From Bacteroidales bacterium (GTDB lineage: Bacteria > Bacteroidota > Bacteroidia > Bacteroidales > UBA932): a stretch of DNA of 35,482 bases. How positions within the stretch are numbered: position 1 is the first letter of the stretch; each line of letters begins with the position of its first letter. The stretch lies in the NCBI GenBank assembly GCA_017544265.1, contig JAFYEM010000006.1, positions 1 to 35,482 on the forward strand. Reading direction: 5' to 3'. The position numbers and the translations under genes are program-made. A model generated the notes under the pieces. The model did no database searches and was not told where the DNA came from. It worked only from the letters and a program-made list of their open reading frames with translations. This document shows, one piece after another, positions 736 through 32,982 of this stretch.

Positions 736-3729
736 GTGAAGAAACTAACCACATTGCTGCTGTCGGCGCTGCTCTGCGTCTCAGCACTCGCACAGTCCCT
801 TGTCCGCGGGTCCGTAAAAGACCCGGCCGGAAATCCTCTGCCGGGGGCATTCATTTCAGCGAAAGGCTCCCTTGTGGGAGTGTCTTCGGACGCTGACGGA
901 AACTTCGAAATAAAGGCAAAACAAGGTGATGTCCTCGAGGCGTCATTCCTGGGCATGATTCCCGGAAAAGTCACCGTCGAGGGTGCTTCCGTGGAAATAA
1001 TACTCGAGCCGGACGACAATGTACTTGAGGAAACAGTAGTTGTCGGCTACGGCGTAACCCGCAAGAGAGACCTTGCCGGCAGCGTCGCTCAGGTCAAGAC
1101 CGAAGATGTCCATGCCGGTGGAATTACCTCCACGGCGGAAATACTTCGCGGCCGGGCGGCTGGAGTGAGCGTGCGTCAGCAGTCCTTCGAGCCGGGCGGC
1201 GGAATTACCGTCAGGGTCAGGGGCTCTTCCACCATCGAGGCGGAAAACGATCCGCTTTACATTGTGGACGGCATCCAGTCCAACGTGGGCAACCAGGTCA
1301 GCCCCGAGGATATAGAAAGCATAGAAATACTTAAAGACGCGGCAGCGACAGCGATTTACGGCGCCCGGGGCGCCAATGGCGTCATACTCATTACTACCAG
1401 GCACGGTTCCGCCGGGAAAATCTCTGTGGACTATTCGTACAACTTCTCCGGCAAAGTGCTTCAGAATCCCTGGAAGCTGCTTAATGCAGAGGAGACCATA
1501 AAGTACAATATGAAAATGTACGAGGCGAACGGTTCCGCAGGAGACCCTCCCTACACTCCGCAGGAACAGGCCTTCAGGGGCGCCGGAACAGACTGGATCA
1601 AGGAAATGACCCGCTTCTCATCGACCCAGACCCATGCCGTTTCGGTCCAGGGCGGTACGGACAAGATACGTGGCGCGGCCTCCTTCGTGAAGGCCACCGA
1701 CCAGGGTATAGTCAAAAATACCGACTTCGACCGCATCTCCTCGCGCGTAAACCTGGATTTCAACATCACCCCCTGGCTCCGCGCCGGAATCAGCGCCTAC
1801 GCCGCCAAGACAGTGAGGACCTATCTGTCCATGGGCACGAATTCCTCCACCAACAACGCGATGTACTGGATGTTTCTCGCCAGCCCTCTCAACGGCATCG
1901 ACGGGAAAGACGTCTTCGGCAAGACCTCGCGCGTGGAGACCGTCTATGCGGAAGTGATGAACAAGGACCAGAAGATATCGGTCAACAACGCCTATGTCAC
2001 CGTCTATGCCGAAGCCAACCCGGTCAAGGAGCTGACGGCCCGCGTGCAGTATTCCTACAGCACTGAGATGTCAAAGTACCAGACCTATTACGACCGCAAC
2101 ACCATCCAGGGGCAGTCCACCAATGGCCAGGCGACAACCGAGATAGAGGATGTGGACTATCAGCAGCTTGAGGGACTGCTGACATGGCATCACAATTTCG
2201 GCGGGATGCACGACGTGAAACTCATAGGCGGCAGCTCCTGGCAGAAGAACGTCTATAACTATTCGGGCATGGGTGCCGAGAATTTCACGACCGACGAATT
2301 CTCCTACAACAACATGGGGGCCGGCTCCATAATCGACTGGGTCGCGACGGCCCGTTCGGACAAGACCAACCTGTCGTTCTTCACCCGCGCGGAATATATC
2401 CTGATGGACAAGTACATACTTAACGCAAGTTATCGTGCGGACGCTTCCTCCAACTTCGGAACAGGCAACAAGTGGGGACATTTCTTCTCCGCGTCGGCCG
2501 CATGGCAGATAGGGGACGAACCCTGGATGGCCTTCATCCGTCCGGCGGTGTCGTCATGGAAACTACGCGCCAGCTGGGGCCAGACCGGAAACGACGGTAT
2601 AGGCACGTATAAATCTCTGCGGACCTATGCCTTCCAGGATGTCTATCTGGGCGGTTCGTCCATAGTCAAGGGAATGTTCCCCCAGAATACCGGAAACCCG
2701 AACCTGAAATGGGAAACGACAAGCCAGCTGGACATAGGCACGGACATTTCCTTCCTCAAGGGCAAGGTCGAGGTGAATTTCGACTGGTACGACAAACTCA
2801 CCACCGACCTGCTTAACGAGATAAATATCTCCACCACTACCACCGGTATCCAGACCATGACCGGAAACAACGGAAGCGTGCGCAATACCGGTGTGGAACT
2901 CTTCGTAAAGTGGCATATTTTCGACAACCGGGATTTCTCATGGAGCACGACCCTGAACGCCTCGCACAATACCAACAAAGTGGTGTCCCTGGGCGCCCCG
3001 ACTTATTATTCGCTCCGCCCGCACGGGTCTTATGAGACCACCCAGTATGCGGTCGTCAAGGTGGGAGATCCGCTTTCGACCATCTACGGCTACGTGTTCG
3101 AGGGAATACTCCAGGAAGGGGAGACATACAAGCCCCAGCCTGCATCCCAGCCCGGCGACCCCAAGTTCAAGGATCTGGACAAGGACGGGATAATCACGGA
3201 AAAAGACCGCAAGGCCATTGGTTGTGGCGAGCCAAAGGTGGTCCTCGGCTGGGGAAACACCCTCCGCTGGAAAGATTTCGACTTCACCCTCTTCTTCGAC
3301 GCCAGTATCGGAAATGACCTCCTGAATGTCTCCAAGGTGCTTCTGGAGGACAATGACCGCCTCCGGACCTGCCTTGACCGCTGGACAAAAACCAATCCGT
3401 CCAACGAGGTTATGAGGGGAACATGGAAGAAGGACGGCGGCCCTCAGTACGGCTCCTTCGTGAATTCCCGCTATGTGGAAAATGCGAGTTTCTTCCGTCT
3501 GACCAACATAGAAATCGGCTACAGCATCCCCTGGCACAAACTCGGAGTGGATTTCATCAAAGGCCTGAGAGTCTTTGTGGGCGCCAACCGGCTCTTTACA
3601 ATTACCGGCTATTCCGGTTTCGACCCCGAGGTGTCCACCAACGGCGGGGCAGCCGCCACCCAGGGCCTCGACTACAATGCATATCCGGCCTACAGGCAGT
3701 TCAACGCCGGGGCGCGCATAACCTTCTGA
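736..3729 (+). CDS. SusC/RagA-family TonB-dependent outer-membrane transporter
   Basis: A 997-residue outer-membrane protein that, with its SusD partner, takes up oligosaccharides or other large nutrients using TonB energy. The GTG start at 736 is chosen because it gives a clean signal peptide (VKKLTTLLLSALLCVSALAQ); an in-frame TTG at 691 would add 15 residues overlapping the putative promoter. Residues about 22-95 are the carboxypeptidase D regulatory-like domain typical of SusC. VVVGYG at 101-106 is the conserved SusC motif before the plug. The plug follows (GRAAGVSVR, VRVRGSSTI, PLYIVDG, EILKDAAATAIYGARGANGVI), then a long beta-barrel ending in ARITF with a terminal aromatic residue. The susD gene begins 12 bp after the stop. 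The substrate cannot be read from this protein, but the GH20 gene downstream suggests a hexosamine-containing glycan. Confidence 0.95.
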   Translation: MKKLTTLLLSALLCVSALAQSLVRGSVKDPAGNPLPGAFISAKGSLVGVSSDADGNFEIKAKQGDVLEASFLGMIPGKVTVEGASVEIILEPDDNVLEETVVVGYGVTRKRDLAGSVAQVKTEDVHAGGITSTAEILRGRAAGVSVRQQSFEPGGGITVRVRGSSTIEAENDPLYIVDGIQSNVGNQVSPEDIESIEILKDAAATAIYGARGANGVILITTRHGSAGKISVDYSYNFSGKVLQNPWKLLNAEETIKYNMKMYEANGSAGDPPYTPQEQAFRGAGTDWIKEMTRFSSTQTHAVSVQGGTDKIRGAASFVKATDQGIVKNTDFDRISSRVNLDFNITPWLRAGISAYAAKTVRTYLSMGTNSSTNNAMYWMFLASPLNGIDGKDVFGKTSRVETVYAEVMNKDQKISVNNAYVTVYAEANPVKELTARVQYSYSTEMSKYQTYYDRNTIQGQSTNGQATTEIEDVDYQQLEGLLTWHHNFGGMHDVKLIGGSSWQKNVYNYSGMGAENFTTDEFSYNNMGAGSIIDWVATARSDKTNLSFFTRAEYILMDKYILNASYRADASSNFGTGNKWGHFFSASAAWQIGDEPWMAFIRPAVSSWKLRASWGQTGNDGIGTYKSLRTYAFQDVYLGGSSIVKGMFPQNTGNPNLKWETTSQLDIGTDISFLKGKVEVNFDWYDKLTTDLLNEINISTTTTGIQTMTGNNGSVRNTGVELFVKWHIFDNRDFSWSTTLNASHNTNKVVSLGAPTYYSLRPHGSYETTQYAVVKVGDPLSTIYGYVFEGILQEGETYKPQPASQPGDPKFKDLDKDGIITEKDRKAIGCGEPKVVLGWGNTLRWKDFDFTLFFDASIGNDLLNVSKVLLEDNDRLRTCLDRWTKTNPSNEVMRGTWKKDGGPQYGSFVNSRYVENASFFRLTNIEIGYSIPWHKLGVDFIKGLRVFVGANRLFTITGYSGFDPEVSTNGGAAATQGLDYNAYPAYRQFNAGARITF

Positions 3730-3741
3730 CGAGAATCCATC

Positions 3742-6132
3742 ATGAAAAAGATAATGACAATAATCATAGCCGTTCTTCTCGCTGTTTCCTGCAAGGATAT
3801 GCTGGAGGAGACAGTCTATTCATCCCTGACGGACGACAACGCCTTCACCTCCGGCGAAAACGCACTCTCGTCGGTGAACAGCATCTATGCCCCGCTGCAC
3901 AGCCTGTACCGCGAGCCGATGTTCTATCTGAACGATGTCACCGCGGACAGCGGATACAAGGGCGGCAGCCCCTTCGAAGTGCTCAACGACGAGGGAATCT
4001 ATAACGACGAGCGCACCCTCAACGCCTGGAATTACCTCTATCAGATAGCCTCGCGCGCGAACATTGCCATAGACCGTATTCCCGGGATGGCGGCGAACAA
4101 TTTCACGAATATCAGTCGCGAGAGGCTGCTCGGCGAGGCCTGTTTCATGAGAGCTTTCGCCTATTATAACCTCACCGACCTCTTTTTTCAGGTTCCGCTG
4201 ATTCTGGACAGCAAGATAAGCCCTTCCGCCAAGGAGAAATACGACAAGATAGACAAAATCGAGATGCAGATCGAGGACGACCTGCTGAAGGCGAAGGAAT
4301 GGCTGCCGAAGAGCTATGCCGCAAGGGAAGATGCCGGAAGGCCCACCTACGGGGCCGCATGCGGCTATCTCGCCAGGCTCTATATGCGCCAGGCCGGACG
4401 CGAAAGGACGGCCGGCGGAGAGGCCGACGCCCTTCCTATGTGGCGGGACGCCCTTTTCGAAGTCAATAACGTACTTGCCCTGGAGGGCAGCATTTACTCG
4501 CTGCAGCCCACTGTTTGGGAAGTTTTCGACCCTTCTTCCGAGGCCACGCTCTACAATAATGAATTGATTTTTGCCATCCGGGCTTCCGACAAGACCCTTG
4601 CAAACGGAAGCTGGGACCTCGGACTTCAGTTCACTCCCTGGGGTTACGACATGGGCTGGAGCAATATTCTCCAGCAACTTGAAATGACCTGGTGCTTCGA
4701 CCCCGACGACGACCGTTTCAAGGTGCTTCAGGTCACCCGCTTCCCGGATGTCTATAACGGCACCAACGCCAAGAAGACCTATTCTCTCGCTCCGCCTTCG
4801 ATAGACAAGACAGGTGCTGTCATTCCGGCGGACCATGTGATAGACGGCAACCGTTTCGACGAGATTGTGGAACTGGACGCGACCTTCACCCAGAAGTACA
4901 AGTATCTGTACACCAGGCAGTACAACTACAACACTCCGAACAACCTGCCGCTGCTCCGCCTTGCGGATATAATCCTTTGCAAGGCCGAGATTCTCAACGA
5001 GCTGAACGGCCCCAACCAGGAGTCCATTTCTCTTGTGAACCGTCTTCGCGAGAGGGCCTACCACGGCAAGAGCCGGAATCTTACCCTGGCGGAATTTCCG
5101 GACAAGGCGACGCTGCGCAATGCAATCTGCGACGAAAGGCTCTTTGAACTGAATATGGAATGCCTGCGCCGGCCGGACCTTATCCGCATGGGTCTTTGGA
5201 AGGACAGGATGCAGCGCCTGCTGTATGCCATAGACAAAAAATATGAGTGGAAGGAGAAGAACGAGGGCCGCGCTTCGGGCTATTACAATGGCTCATGGGC
5301 TTCTTATCCGGACCCGCTCAGCCTCAGTGACGACGATCCCCGCCAGTATATTCCCATTCCCTATAGGGAGGTGCTGATGAACGGGGACCTTGCGAATGCG
5401 AGAAAGGGCATCGAGACGGCTGCAACTCCAGATGTGATGGAGTATTCCGATCCTGTCCATTACGGCGAGGGTGAGGAGGATGATCCGGATGATCCGGATA
5501 CCCCCGGCGAGGAGGTATTCACTACTAAATGGGATTTCGACACTCTGGACGGATGGGTTTACAGCCCCCAGGGAGGAACTCCCGAGAGCCAGTGCCATCT
5601 GGAAGACGGCTGCCTGGTGATAACCTCCCGCAAAAACACCCAGGACCGTCCAAAGTACCGCACTTCCGGCGGAAGGATTTACGGACCGGGAAAATATGTC
5701 TGGCGTATTTTCATTCCGGAAATAGAAGCGGGTGCACAGGCCTCGGTGGGTGCATTCCTCTATATGGACGATGCCCATGAACTGGACTTTGAGATTGGTT
5801 ACGGCACCGCCGCTGCCCGTACCCAGGCCGGAGCGAAGGAGGGGGAAATGGTGGCCTGCATGACCAACCAGCAGCATCCCACTGTCTCGAGGTACTATCC
5901 GGTCACTCCTGGCTGGCATACCTTCACGCTGGACATGCCCCTGAGCGGAGACTACTACAATGCTGTCTGGTACATAGACGATGTCCAGAAGCAGTCCCAG
6001 AGGCTGAATTTCGGTGCAGAGACACAGTTCTATATCTATGTTTCCGTGGAAAACCTGAGTTTCATGGGGGATCACCTCCCTGCCCGTGACGTCAGCGCAA
6101 AATTCGATTATGTTGCATATAAGAAGTATTAA
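3742..6132 (+). CDS. SusD/RagB-family lipoprotein with a C-terminal GH16-like domain
   Basis: A 796-residue surface lipoprotein that forms the lid and glycan-binding partner of SusC. The lipobox LAVSC places the lipidated cysteine at residue 17. Residues to about 570 are an ordinary SusD body, with the TPR-like ARANIAIDRI and LGEACFMRAFAYYNL segments and the C-terminal ERLFELNMECLRRPDLIRMG motif. Most SusD proteins stop near 500-600 residues. Here an acidic DDPDDPD linker (about 576-591) leads to about 205 extra residues that look like the GH16/concanavalin-like jelly roll: W-F-D-x-L-D-G-W near the start, a YGPGKYVWRI strand, HELDFEIGYG, GWHTFTLDM and WYIDD. Glu680, Asp682 and Glu684 form an ExDxE motif like the GH16 catalytic triad. 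Whether it cleaves or only binds glycan is unknown. The SusD call is secure; the GH16-like call is from pattern reading. Confidence 0.92.
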   Translation: MKKIMTIIIAVLLAVSCKDMLEETVYSSLTDDNAFTSGENALSSVNSIYAPLHSLYREPMFYLNDVTADSGYKGGSPFEVLNDEGIYNDERTLNAWNYLYQIASRANIAIDRIPGMAANNFTNISRERLLGEACFMRAFAYYNLTDLFFQVPLILDSKISPSAKEKYDKIDKIEMQIEDDLLKAKEWLPKSYAAREDAGRPTYGAACGYLARLYMRQAGRERTAGGEADALPMWRDALFEVNNVLALEGSIYSLQPTVWEVFDPSSEATLYNNELIFAIRASDKTLANGSWDLGLQFTPWGYDMGWSNILQQLEMTWCFDPDDDRFKVLQVTRFPDVYNGTNAKKTYSLAPPSIDKTGAVIPADHVIDGNRFDEIVELDATFTQKYKYLYTRQYNYNTPNNLPLLRLADIILCKAEILNELNGPNQESISLVNRLRERAYHGKSRNLTLAEFPDKATLRNAICDERLFELNMECLRRPDLIRMGLWKDRMQRLLYAIDKKYEWKEKNEGRASGYYNGSWASYPDPLSLSDDDPRQYIPIPYREVLMNGDLANARKGIETAATPDVMEYSDPVHYGEGEEDDPDDPDTPGEEVFTTKWDFDTLDGWVYSPQGGTPESQCHLEDGCLVITSRKNTQDRPKYRTSGGRIYGPGKYVWRIFIPEIEAGAQASVGAFLYMDDAHELDFEIGYGTAAARTQAGAKEGEMVACMTNQQHPTVSRYYPVTPGWHTFTLDMPLSGDYYNAVWYIDDVQKQSQRLNFGAETQFYIYVSVENLSFMGDHLPARDVSAKFDYVAYKKY

Positions 6133-9697: not shown

Positions 9698-9747
9698 GTC
9701 AGGGTTCCGGCGGCATCGACCCCCTATTAAGCCGCCGGGGCCCTGAC
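9698..9747. repeat. Family A palindromic hairpin element, intergenic copy
   Basis: A 17-bp stem (9698-9714 with 9731-9747, two G-U pairs on the + strand) closes the 16-nt loop ATCGACCCCCTATTAA. It lies in the 107-bp gap between the convergent GH20 and ksgA genes. The same hairpin, with loop ATCGACCCCCTGTAAA, occurs twice inside the M20 peptidase gene. Relative to those copies, an A-T stem pair is replaced by C-G, a compensatory change. No T-tract follows, so a terminator role is uncertain. Confidence 0.8.
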
Positions 9748-14877: not shown

Positions 14878-15001
14878 AAAATTACCTGCATCACTTTTAT
14901 CTAACCCTCGCCTTCCAGGCGACCCCTCCCAACTGTGTTGGGCCCCTCCCACTTATGATGCCGTGGGTGGCACAGGCGATGAAAGTGATACAGGTAATTT
15001 T
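14878..15001 (-). repeat. Family B 124-bp palindromic element, copy 1 (inverted)
   Basis: The ends form a 24-bp terminal inverted repeat (14878-14901 with 14978-15001; two mismatches), with outer sequence AAAATTACCTG. The 76-bp interior, read on the minus strand, holds three hairpins: GTGCC/GGCAT, CCCAAC/GTTGGG and TCGCC/GGCGA. It matches copies 2 and 3 along its whole length in inverted orientation, and the flank TTATGGTG outside one end is also shared. It fills most of the 173-bp gap between murA and the aminotransferase gene. Confidence 0.88.
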
Positions 15002-16166: not shown

Positions 16167-16963
16167 CAAAAGAAGTTTTAATACTCTCCGGTGCCGGAAA
16201 CGTGTTCGTGATGCTGGACGGCCGTGACGGATTCCGTCCGGATATTCCGGAAATAATCAGCCTGTGCCGGGAATACCGCACCGACGGCCTGATGATACTC
16301 TCCCTCCCCGTGTCCGCACAGGGCGGGGCGGATTTTATCATGGAGTTCTATAACCCCGACGGCAGCGGCGGAATGATGTGCGGCAACGGCGGGCGCTGCA
16401 TAACCGCCTTCGCGGAAACCCTCGGAATCGCCCCCGCGGATGGCCGTGTCTATAGATTCGAAGCCGCTGACGGACCCCATACAGGAGAAATCCTTTCCCG
16501 CGGGGAGCGCTGCTGGACTATCCGGCTCGGAATGAAGAGCGTCACGGCCGTGGAAGAAGTTAAAGGCGGATATTTCCTCGACACCGGCACCCGACATTTC
16601 GTGAAATTCGTGGAGGATGTCGATGCCGTGGACATTATGAAAGAGGGCCCTGCGCTGAGGCACGACCCGTTTTTCGGGCCGGTTGGCACGAATGTGAACT
16701 TCGTCCAGATACTTCCTGACGGAAGCCTGAAAGTGCGTACCTTCGAAAAAGGAGTCGAGGGGGAAACCCTCGCCTGCGGCACCGGCATCACCGCAAGCGC
16801 AATAGCCTTCATCCGTCATCGCGACTCCGGACTTCGTCCTCTGCACGAAATGTCAGTGCGGCTGCATGCACGGATTGCAGATCTTGAGGTGTGTTTCCGC
16901 AGGAGCGCGGAAGGATTTGACAATGTATATCTTACAGGACCAGTGACCTATGACCGCGACTGA
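16163..16963 (+). CDS. dapF: Diaminopimelate epimerase
   Basis: A 266-residue cofactor-free epimerase that converts LL-diaminopimelate to meso-diaminopimelate, needed for peptidoglycan cross-links and lysine. Two-base catalysis uses paired cysteines, here Cys73 in MMCGNGGRC and Cys205 in LACGTGIT. FYNPDGSGG and GPVGTNVNFVQ are the substrate-binding segments, and HFVKFVED takes the place of the usual PHxVxFV motif. Length is normal. It overlaps the upstream aminotransferase by 4 bp and the downstream M20 gene by 14 bp, so the three are almost certainly co-transcribed. Confidence 0.95.
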   Translation: MTKEVLILSGAGNVFVMLDGRDGFRPDIPEIISLCREYRTDGLMILSLPVSAQGGADFIMEFYNPDGSGGMMCGNGGRCITAFAETLGIAPADGRVYRFEAADGPHTGEILSRGERCWTIRLGMKSVTAVEEVKGGYFLDTGTRHFVKFVEDVDAVDIMKEGPALRHDPFFGPVGTNVNFVQILPDGSLKVRTFEKGVEGETLACGTGITASAIAFIRHRDSGLRPLHEMSVRLHARIADLEVCFRRSAEGFDNVYLTGPVTYDRD

Positions 16964-18260
16964 ACTTTCATTCTTCAAAGAAATACTGTCTATAGATTCG
17001 ACCACCGGCAGCGAGCGCGCCCTTTCGGACTTCCTCGCAGACCACTTTATGTCAATGGGTGCGGGAGCGGTGCTGCGACGCTTCGAGGTGGGCGACGGCA
17101 GTGAAAACCTGCTGCTGAGCTGGGGCGAACCGAAGGTCGTTTTCTGCACCCACATGGATACCGTCCCGCCGTATATTCCGCCGACCTTCGTATCGGCGGC
17201 TGAAGCAGCCTGGCGTGCGGAGATGTCGGCAGTGGCAGTTGCGGCAGCAGGAGCAGCGGCAGCGGGGGAGGCGCCGTCCGGCAGGGTTCCGGAGGCATCG
17301 ACCCCCTGTAAAGCCTCCGGGGCCCTGCCGGAAGGCGCCGCTGCGCAGGCTGACGAAGTTCTGCCGGAAGGCGCTGCTGCGCAGGCAGACGAAGAAGACG
17401 CTGTGATTTATGGACGCGGAGCATGCGATGCCAAGGGGCAGATAGTGGCTATGCTGAAAGCCTGCCTGAAACTGTCAGACGAAGGGAAATCCGGATTCGC
17501 GCTGTTGCTTCTGAGCGGCGAGGAAACCGGCTCCTGGGGCGCCAAAGCCTTTGCCAAACTGCCATTCGAAGCCCCCTTCCTGATAGTAGGTGAACCCACC
17601 GGAGGCATCCCCGTGTCAGCATCCAAAGGCACCAAATCCTTCGACCTGAGTTTCCGCGGCATCCCCTTCCATTCAGGTTATCCGGAAAAAGGACTCAGCG
17701 CCGTGGACCTTTTCATAGACTTTTGCAACCGCCTTCGCGAAGTCGATTTCGGCGACGATCCCATACTCGGAAAAACCAGCTGGAACATAGGCCTTCTAAG
17801 AAGCGACAATCCCCAGAACATACTTTCCGCTGAATTAAGCTGCCGGATCTATTTCCGCACCACTTTCCTCTCCGACGGCAAAGTAGAAGCCGTACTGAAG
17901 GAAATTGCCGGTCTGACCGTCAGTGACAGGGCAGATGGTGCTGCAGCGGGCAGGGTTCCGGAGGCATCGACCCCCTGTAAAGTCTCCGGGGCCCAGCCCG
18001 CGGAAGCGTCGCCCGGCATAGACATAAGCGCCCGCGGCGGAGACGCCCCGGCGAAATACGTAGTCCCTGACGGGTTCCCGTCGAAGCCCGCCGCCTTCGG
18101 CAGCGATGCCCCCCATCTTAAAAACTTCCCCCACAAAATAATCTGCGGTCCCGGTTCCATACTCACCGCCCACCGCGACGACGAGCAGATTACCACCACC
18201 GAAATAGACAGCGCCGCCGCTTCATATATCCGCATGTACAACTGTCTGACTGCTTCTTAG
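16950..18260 (+). CDS. M20-family metallopeptidase (ArgE/DapE-like) with two palindromic-element insertions
   Basis: A 436-residue dizinc amidohydrolase, longer than the roughly 350-residue form I expect in Bacteroidota. Metal and catalytic motifs are intact: His68 and Asp70 (CTHMDTVPP), Asp160 (GRGACDAKG), Glu191-Glu192 (SGEETGS), Glu215 (VGEPTGG) and His408 (TAHRDDE). Between residues about 78 and 150 lies an Ala-rich insert with family A hairpin copy 2 and a 36-bp tandem duplication; between about 330 and 355 lies copy 3. Both copies use the same frame and encode GRVPEASTPCK. Both fall in linkers between conserved blocks, so the enzyme may still fold. The substrate could be an N-acylated amino acid such as acetylornithine, acetylcitrulline or succinyl-DAP. 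The overlap with dapF favours lysine or arginine biosynthesis, which remains inference. Confidence 0.88.
   Translation: MTATELSFFKEILSIDSTTGSERALSDFLADHFMSMGAGAVLRRFEVGDGSENLLLSWGEPKVVFCTHMDTVPPYIPPTFVSAAEAAWRAEMSAVAVAAAGAAAAGEAPSGRVPEASTPCKASGALPEGAAAQADEVLPEGAAAQADEEDAVIYGRGACDAKGQIVAMLKACLKLSDEGKSGFALLLLSGEETGSWGAKAFAKLPFEAPFLIVGEPTGGIPVSASKGTKSFDLSFRGIPFHSGYPEKGLSAVDLFIDFCNRLREVDFGDDPILGKTSWNIGLLRSDNPQNILSAELSCRIYFRTTFLSDGKVEAVLKEIAGLTVSDRADGAAAGRVPEASTPCKVSGAQPAEASPGIDISARGGDAPAKYVVPDGFPSKPAAFGSDAPHLKNFPHKIICGPGSILTAHRDDEQITTTEIDSAAASYIRMYNCLTAS
17270..17339. repeat. Family A palindromic hairpin element, in-frame copy inside the M20 gene
   Basis: A 27-bp stem (17270-17296 with 17313-17339; 26 pairs including two G-U, one mismatch) closes the loop ATCGACCCCCTGTAAA. 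It codes for residues about 108-130, including SGRVPEASTPCKASGALPEG. The outer stem (GGCGCC...CCGGCAGGG) differs from the other copies but stays paired. The frame used is one that avoids the TAA present across CTGTAAA. Confidence 0.88.
17325..17396 (+). repeat. 36-bp tandem duplication next to the family A insertion
   Basis: Bases 17325-17360 and 17361-17396 are near-identical 36-mers (CTGCCGGAAGGCGC start), encoding LPEGAAAQADEV and LPEGAAAQADEE. The duplication begins in the right arm of the hairpin, suggesting slippage at the inserted palindrome. Confidence 0.85.
17946..18001. repeat. Family A palindromic hairpin element, second in-frame copy inside the M20 gene
   Basis: A 20-bp stem (17946-17965 with 17982-18001; one A-A mismatch, three G-U pairs) closes the loop ATCGACCCCCTGTAAA, identical to the copy at 17297-17312. 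It encodes AGRVPEASTPCKVSGAQPA in the same frame as the other coding copy. Outer stem bases differ from that copy but remain paired. Confidence 0.86.
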
Positions 18261-18270
18261 TTATGGTGAA

Positions 18271-18394
18271 AAAATTACCTGCGTCACTTTCATCGCCTGT
18301 GTCATCCACGGCATCATAAGCGGGAGGGGCCCAACGCAGTTGGGAGGGGTCGCCTGAAAGGCGACGGTTAGATGAAAGTGATGCAGGTAATTTT
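18271..18394 (+). repeat. Family B 124-bp palindromic element, copy 2
   Basis: The 24-bp terminal arms (18271-18294 with 18371-18394) begin AAAATTACCTGCGTCAC and are almost perfectly complementary. The interior holds the three hairpins GTGTC/GGCAT (with G-U pairs), CCCAAC/GTTGGG and GTCGCC/GGCGAC. A-tract and T-tract flanks make it look like a two-way intrinsic terminator. It begins 10 bp after the M20 stop. The flanks outside the element, CTGACTGCTT and AAGCAGTCAG, are also complementary. Confidence 0.9.
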
Positions 18395-18413
18395 TTCTAA
18401 GCAGTCAGAGCAA

Positions 18414-32787: not shown

Positions 32788-32818
32788 CAGATAACTTTTA
32801 TTCTTATGCTATGGTGAA

Positions 32819-32942
32819 ATAATTACCTGCGTCACTTTTATCGCCTGTGCCACCCTCGGCACCATAAGAGGGAGGGGCCCAACAAAGTTGGGAGGGGTCG
32901 CCTGGAAGGCGACGGTTAGATAAAAGTGACGCAGGTAATTTT
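32819..32942 (+). repeat. Family B 124-bp palindromic element, copy 3
   Basis: Arms 32819-32842 and 32919-32942 form a 24-bp inverted repeat with one mismatch (AATTACCTGCGTCAC... core). Three interior hairpins are present: GTGCC/GGCAC, CCCAAC/GTTGGG and GTCGCC/GGCGAC. It keeps the same orientation as copy 2 and the same upstream flank TATGGTGAA. It is followed by a T-run (AATTTTTTC). Confidence 0.9.
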
Positions 32943-32982
32943 TTCTTTTTCCTGAATAAATGTAAAAAGTGCAAAAAAAGCA

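Follow-up and report, generated by a model that had tools for sequence, protein, structure and literature searches.

An in-frame palindromic repeat family in protein-coding genes of a Bacteroidales lineage

How does one hairpin come to stand twice, in the same reading frame, inside a single peptidase gene, and once more between genes? The question is raised by a 35,482-nucleotide stretch of contig JAFYEM010000006.1 (the window, meaning the whole stretch of DNA that was analysed) from a Bacteroidales bacterium, whose assembly GCA_017544265.1 is a 1.87 Mb draft in 65 contigs, 90.5% complete. The following features are concerned.

16950..18260, + strand: M20-family peptidase/deacylase gene, 436 amino acids, host of two in-frame hairpins (Pfam PF01546, 3.3e-18; PF07687, 2.8e-9)
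17270..17339, + strand: hairpin copy 1, coding, + orientation; 27-bp stem with one position unpaired, loop ATCGACCCCCTGTAAA at 17297-17312; 82.3 bits, training-set copy
about 17941..18006, + strand: hairpin copy 2, coding, + orientation; mismatched stem, loop ATCGACCCCCTGTAAA at 17966-17981; 74.3 bits, training-set copy; ends drawn by assuming 25 bp per side (the stem routine extended to 30 positions, 3 of them unpaired)
9698..9747, + strand: hairpin copy 3, intergenic; 17-bp stem, all paired including G.U, loop ATCGACCCCCTATTAA; 75.7 bits, training-set copy

Both hairpins of the M20 gene and the one between genes belong to a single family. As the sequence-only reading had claimed, the M20 copies share their loop, lie in one reading frame and both encode GRVPEASTPCK, and the loop of the third copy, which is indeed intergenic, reads as a stop in the frame of the coding copies; the genes flanking it belong by Pfam to the GH20 and rRNA dimethylase families. 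The residues named there as metal ligands (His68, Asp70, Asp160, Glu191, Glu192, Glu215 and His408) all stand at those positions, seven letters of seven, and are putative ligands. One correction is needed: the extra segment at the first M20 site is larger than the hairpin and further comprises a stretch rich in Ala as well as the unit LPEGAAAQADE twice. A blastn search of the source genome with the M20 stretch alone yielded 18 other matches (best E 1.2e-13), so the likeness of the hairpins is more than chance. A covariance model assigns E values of 2.8e-16, 2.6e-14 and 1.2e-14 to copies 1, 2 and 3, all three of which belong to its training set.

This model was built from 26 copies, aligned without gaps, with a 24-pair stem around a 16-nt loop. 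Run against the source genome at E <=0.1, it gave 78 matches, which reduce to 67 places after removal of 11 opposite-strand duplicates; 41 of the 67 lie outside the training set and form the independent part of the model evidence. The search of the genome and its relatives that the sequence-only reading had suggested therefore turned up further copies in number, 67 places marked by the model in this genome, and found the family in other species as well. Among the 26 aligned copies, 90.2% of 624 cells are paired, compared with 66.2% after shuffling, and none of 500 shuffles reaches any of five measures, the percentage itself being biased upward by the choice of these copies for loop and stem. 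When the partner columns of the same copies are slid by 1-3, pairing falls to 35.5-47.3%, and 23 of the 24 pairs have changes on both sides. In source-genome loci, most of which had been chosen for their hairpins, selection by loop only (at most one mismatch) gave 71 matches, 50 of them with a gapless stem score of at least 9.

The anatomy of the element is characteristic. In the source genome the loop is mostly ATMGACMCMCTNNWNA and the closing pairs GGC/GCC are nearly constant, while the remaining stem is variable; in two alignments that span 24 bp of stem, invariant columns are confined to the loop and the closing pair. With flanks included, the stems of 53 gapless copies stay paired as far as about pair 22-25 and beyond it are at the shuffled level; the unit is thus roughly 66 nt long. 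Some hairpins of other species pair out to 28-30 bp. Loose clustering of 65 full copies resulted in two stem groups of 19, smaller groups of 4, 4, 2, 2 and 2, and 13 singles. Copies are often paired or tripled, about 70-80 nt apart, and parts of them are tandemly repeated at several places. In the BCCP gene (L077, 1438-1983) the 5' arm of the hairpin recurs, without the loop, in an upstream tandem repeat. The adjacent genes lptB (L063, 1651-2736) and dnaX (2746-4641) contain closely similar hairpin triplets, as if an array had been copied across.

Conservation of a loop could also mean that it acts as an RNA element, recognised within the mRNA by some protein or another RNA, and the excess of G.U over A.C cells in the 53 gapless copies (103 vs 19) points the same way. 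Three shared positions, however, account for roughly two in every three G.U cells, and Rfam gave no match within the window at the gathering threshold. The orientation of coding copies relative to their genes is near even, 14 in the + and 21 in the - orientation (n = 35, p 0.31), which had already weakened the RNA reading, and we regard it as very unlikely.

The codon usage of 16 long ORFs in the window served to score open reading frames, and the host genes were then translated; 35 of the 67 places were accepted as in frame, inside 17 genes. The host genes are listed here by number of copies.

One copy each: biotin carrier, Porin_10, CysS, RsmE type, UvrA
Two copies each: GT2 glycosyltransferase, DUF1573, AtpG, AtpB, M20, MiaA, RsmB/F
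Three copies each: LptB, DnaX, MMPL type, YfhO-like
Four copies: ManA

One of the hosts with three copies is a large membrane protein without a Pfam match, which we take to be YfhO-like. AtpG, AtpB, MiaA, CysS, LptB and DnaX exceed their curated NCBIfam cut-offs; ManA stays under its own (96.3 vs 116.2). The copies form a C-terminal extension in LptB and lie near the N-terminus in DUF1573 and Porin_10. Protein searches of the source genome, a 90.5% complete assembly in which a second copy may be missing, gave one match each for CysS and M20; the AtpG query gave four, namely the gene itself and hairpin-coded peptides in ManA, AtpB and the YfhO-like protein. The other 32 places are intergenic, upstream of a likely start or within doubtful ORFs; one start-upstream case precedes the RpiB gene (by Pfam) and another a gene that is presumably TpiA-like.

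Coding copies keep, with few exceptions, to one codon phase. Phase 2 is used by 14 full copies in the + and 18 in the - orientation and by one half-hairpin, which, being cut, came out as phase 0 and falls into phase 2 after manual re-registering; together these make 33 of 35 copies and 16 of 17 genes. The exception is RsmB/F, both copies of which are in phase 1. In the full non-coding copies an open phase 2 is rarer than any other (6 and 12 of 31; 15-20 in the other phases). Measured against the share of open frames, the preference for phase 2 has p 1e-20 by copies and 2e-10 by genes, values that overstate the evidence since the copies are related. All four coding copies examined in other species, from two genes, are likewise in phase 2. 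Insertions or deletions relative to the model occur in none of 34 full coding copies and in 12 of 31 non-coding ones (Fisher p 3.5e-5). We read the phase bias and the lack of indels, as far as the translated sequences go, as signs of selection for a stop-free peptide of small residues; the frame preference could in part stem from gene-to-gene copying.

In comparison with orthologues, the hairpins look like additions to proteins that exist without them. At the first M20 site, 27 of 29 orthologues were usable: the link measures at most 20 residues in 17 of them and 22-79 in ten, the source gene having 79. These 17 are probably forms without the element, though not exact empty alleles from close strains; the peptide, far from being common to all distant orthologues, occurs in none of the 27, as judged by ASTP in the link, and the ten longer links carry other sequence. 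Aligned with PDB 9gxk, UvrA has a sole long query-side insertion, 24 residues that correspond to the hairpin; at another place the 9gxk chain contains a longer stretch that UvrA lacks. In MiaA the alignment breaks off across both inserts; in AtpG it does so at the second, the first being aligned with gaps. In M20, AtpG and CysS, other species have different inserts at the same places. Among 140 link regions, 14 reach a hairpin score of at least 11 and 8 a score of at least 17, where codon shuffling leads one to expect 1.4 and 0.0. Peptides of the SEAKDL and CHSERSEES types, resembling translations of further repeats, were seen in the CysS link (L174, L177, L183, L185) and the M20 link (L218).

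A hairpin of the family stands at one and the same link of CysS in G000 and in three further species (G359, G389 and G093). This bears on the thought that the repeats are an assembly artefact or a chance similarity, which the fragmentation of the source genome into 65 contigs might invite. The same family is present in independent assemblies, at the same CysS link in those three species, and 41 places in the source genome lie outside the set on which the model was trained; this explanation is refuted and we give it practically no weight. The family of protein-coding palindromic repeats is real.

Its range is limited to a lineage. The first model had matches in one of 60 relatives and in at least 19 of 399 other genomes of the same genus, and a wider one, based on 20 copies, matched at least 31 of 400 same-genus genomes, the source genome included; in the 400-genome runs 13 candidates were scored per genome under stricter filters, so that these counts are lower bounds. 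Across the order, two of 393 genomes matched, the source genome and one with a weak match (E 2.3e-5). An exact 22-base pattern was found in nine stretches of named genomes, seven with stems and two without a worthwhile stem. Five MAGs of uncultured bacteria, classed as Bacteroidales or Bacteroidia, supply the seven stemmed stretches, their titles naming red deer and goat reticulum; those in Granulosicoccaceae and Hyphomonas have stem scores of 4 and 6. Counts of the loop pattern against its reversed control are informative in G338 (18 vs 6) and weakly so in G156 (10 vs 6) and G359 (9 vs 5); in three of the six genomes the control outnumbers the pattern (G241, 3 vs 10; G318, 4 vs 6; G389, 6 vs 9). 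Viral contigs gave no match to one exact pattern.

What process would leave a constant loop within variable, yet paired, stems? Mean within-genome identity is 0.81 in the loop in G338 and 0.87 in G156, and 0.41-0.51 in the outer arms against 0.18-0.19 in a shifted control; the figures derive from the 9 of 14 G338 copies passing the pairing cut and from all 6 of G156, with the loop placed by consensus, which favours the loop. By these alignments, the stems are related to one another yet diverged beyond the loop, and still paired. Four pairs differ between the G359 and G389 hairpins of CysS, all of them still paired; the hairpins of G359 and G093 differ at two pairs, both broken, which counts against arms that are kept paired.

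We consider it probable that a short nonautonomous hairpin repeat has multiplied in the source species, in genes as well as between them, through blind insertion, selection, template switching between arms and a recognised loop. Insertion would be blind to the reading frame; a whole insertion would nevertheless preserve it, because 25 + 16 + 25 nt make 66 nt, or 22 codons. Selection would then retain those coding copies that have the stop-free, small-residue phase and, for the most part, a place in a flexible link. Template switching during replication would transfer changes from one arm to the other and so keep them complementary; template switching between the arms of palindromes is described as a known process (PMC8794818). 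As this accounts for the stems alone, the loop needs another constraint, most simply recognition: it would be constant because a putative mobilising enzyme or host factor reads it. That stems vary more than loops fits with the loop being the part that may be recognised.

A different origin of the stems has to be weighed. The mobile unit might be the loop with a few bases of the inner stem, one host flank being copied in inverted orientation upon insertion, so that each stem is made from its target. When seven CysS alleles were compared in register with further orthologues of the gene, their outer 3' arms matched these, four of them with p 0.0007, the lowest value the test can give, and the others with 0.0053, 0.0127 and 0.03; the 5' arms fit less well (p 0.005 to 0.73). 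For its null, however, this arm test took 12 orthologues, the first of 36, and two of the 12 have other hairpins; the alleles L055, L056 and L059 probably represent one event, and in L055 and L059 the arms, drawn overlong, cover conserved host residues. In G061 a second palindrome family occurs in three genes with cores identical at 38 of 38 positions and outer arms alike at 6-8 of 16. At 17 of 19 bases the 5' arm of its M20 copy agrees with the allele of G005, which has no hairpin, and the net insertion is 51 nt where a core and two arms would make 86; but that allele may be the scar of a deletion, and neither arm can be aligned with a second M20 orthologue (L198, net 99 nt). Both arms of the AtpG copy in G061 fail the in-register comparison (p 0.31 and 0.51); without register, the p values are 0.056 for the 5' and 0.62 for the 3' arm in AtpG and 0.047 and 0.35 in M20. 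In the main family two stem groups clearly travel whole, and the within-genome identity of outer arms given above exceeds its shifted control. Seemingly strong in CysS and M20, stem capture was set aside as the main explanation on account of this stem similarity and of the failure in AtpG, and is lowered further because two CysS arms were drawn too long; we hold it to be unlikely, if the least so of the alternatives.

Further palindromes were encountered on the way. The second coding family, with a 38-nt core containing GTCGCGAAGCGAC, is found in L165, L191 and L236 (all G061) and in L160, L164 and L257; its six copies are all in CysS, M20 or AtpG loci, which make up much of the searched set. 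Another family occurs in the window at 18268-18397, adjoining the M20 gene downstream, at 32816-32945 and, on the - strand, at 14878-15001; its constant centre, about 76 nt long (GGGAGGGGCCCAAC...GGGAGGGGTCGCC), is enclosed by arms of 24-27 bp, and other species have centres like it with different arms. At the first AtpG site of L244, a perfect 21-bp stem encloses a different 16-nt loop, TTTGTCCTAAGTTTAT, possibly of yet another family. A broader proposal is that the genus harbours constant-core palindromes of at least three families (cores of 16, 38 and about 60-85 nt), of which only the core would move, the stem of about 25 bp arising by inverted copying of the host, often in essential genes. 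We rate this proposal, too, as improbable; if it were true, new protein linkers would arise from host sequence read backwards.

Another alternative is a REP-like element moved by a RAYT, an HUH tyrosine transposase. In G338 a RAYT-like ORF with the motif SNHGHM, which we take to be of the RAYT type, sits between two hairpin copies. At this locus (L148, 1515-2237, contig C24) the flanking hairpins share the 5' arm AAAAGCGGAAGGGTTTTCAG, and the ORF seems to be continued in another frame. Over the 400 genomes, hairpins occur in 12 of the 33 with a close relative of the ORF and in 19 of the 367 others (Fisher p 6e-7), but this association ignores kinship and its cut-off was chosen after the list had been seen. 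The ORF scores 20.1 bits in Pfam, below the family cut-off of 23, and has no NCBIfam match. Only one of 30 related loci is flanked by hairpins, namely the query itself, compared with none of 30 control loci, and 7 of the other 29 show different palindromes. G000, where most copies were found, has a single, distant relative of the ORF; in 22 sources, two other loci have a clear hairpin, several kb away from the RAYT gene. Matches to PF01797 (E <=0.001) were obtained in 13 of 14 genomes tested, above the cut-off in 11. The link between RAYTs and the hairpin family is weak, and mobilisation of a REP-like element by such an enzyme appears doubtful, slightly more so than stem capture.

Several known systems invite comparison. 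Judged by its sequences, the family resembles Rickettsia palindromic elements (RPEs), being a dispersed palindromic repeat that lies in frame within 17 unrelated genes and leaves their reading frames intact; in R. conorii, 44 RPE integrations are described, with nearly half of the elements inside ORFs (PMC10969869). The resemblance to RPEs that the sequence-only reading had seen stood, with in-frame palindromes in genes, further copies and the presence of the family in other species; it is a resemblance and does not amount to membership of that class, the stemmed stretches from named genomes being Bacteroidales or Bacteroidia and not Rickettsiales. Compared by description, RPEs are about 150 bp long with a conserved peptide, while the present element is roughly 66 nt, with a conserved loop and a variable stem, and lives in Bacteroidales. 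The family is RPE-like in effect and distinct in anatomy. Palindromic insertions in frame in housekeeping genes are likewise described for Wolbachia and Methanocaldococcus, which are other hosts (PMC2996958).

Intragenic palindromes are not new in every form: REPs inside genes, uvrA among these, have already been published for several bacteria, and REPs of the CGTC type for Bacteroidetes (PMC3733652). As that source describes them, GTAG and CGTC REPs are also dispersed palindromes, some of them genic, with stems of 5-13 bp (GTAG) or 8-9 bp (CGTC) and GTAG loops that may have 2-20 nt (PMC3733652); they carry a tag at one end, whereas here the constant part is the 16-nt loop and the stem reaches about 25 bp. 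Inspection of the flanks of 65 copies by eye revealed no constant tag of the GTAG/CGTC type at the hairpin foot. Perfect inverted repeats inside genes are described for the mitochondria of Nematomorpha, with template switching proposed as one possibility; the account given there is not of a dispersed repeat with a constant loop (PMC6649704). The PINSR repeat of Prevotella is lineage-limited and dispersed in Bacteroidales too, but is described as 188 bp long and intergenic (PMC4755523). Among the titles and abstract openings that our searches of open-licence PMC papers brought up, none gave an account of in-frame palindromes in Bacteroidales.

The hairpin family represents an invasion of housekeeping genes at the scale reported for Rickettsia, for which our literature searches turned up no description in this phylum. 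It provides a natural experiment on the inserts that proteins tolerate, and its strict codon phase, together with the contrast between loop and stem, makes both the movement of the element and the matching of palindrome arms testable.
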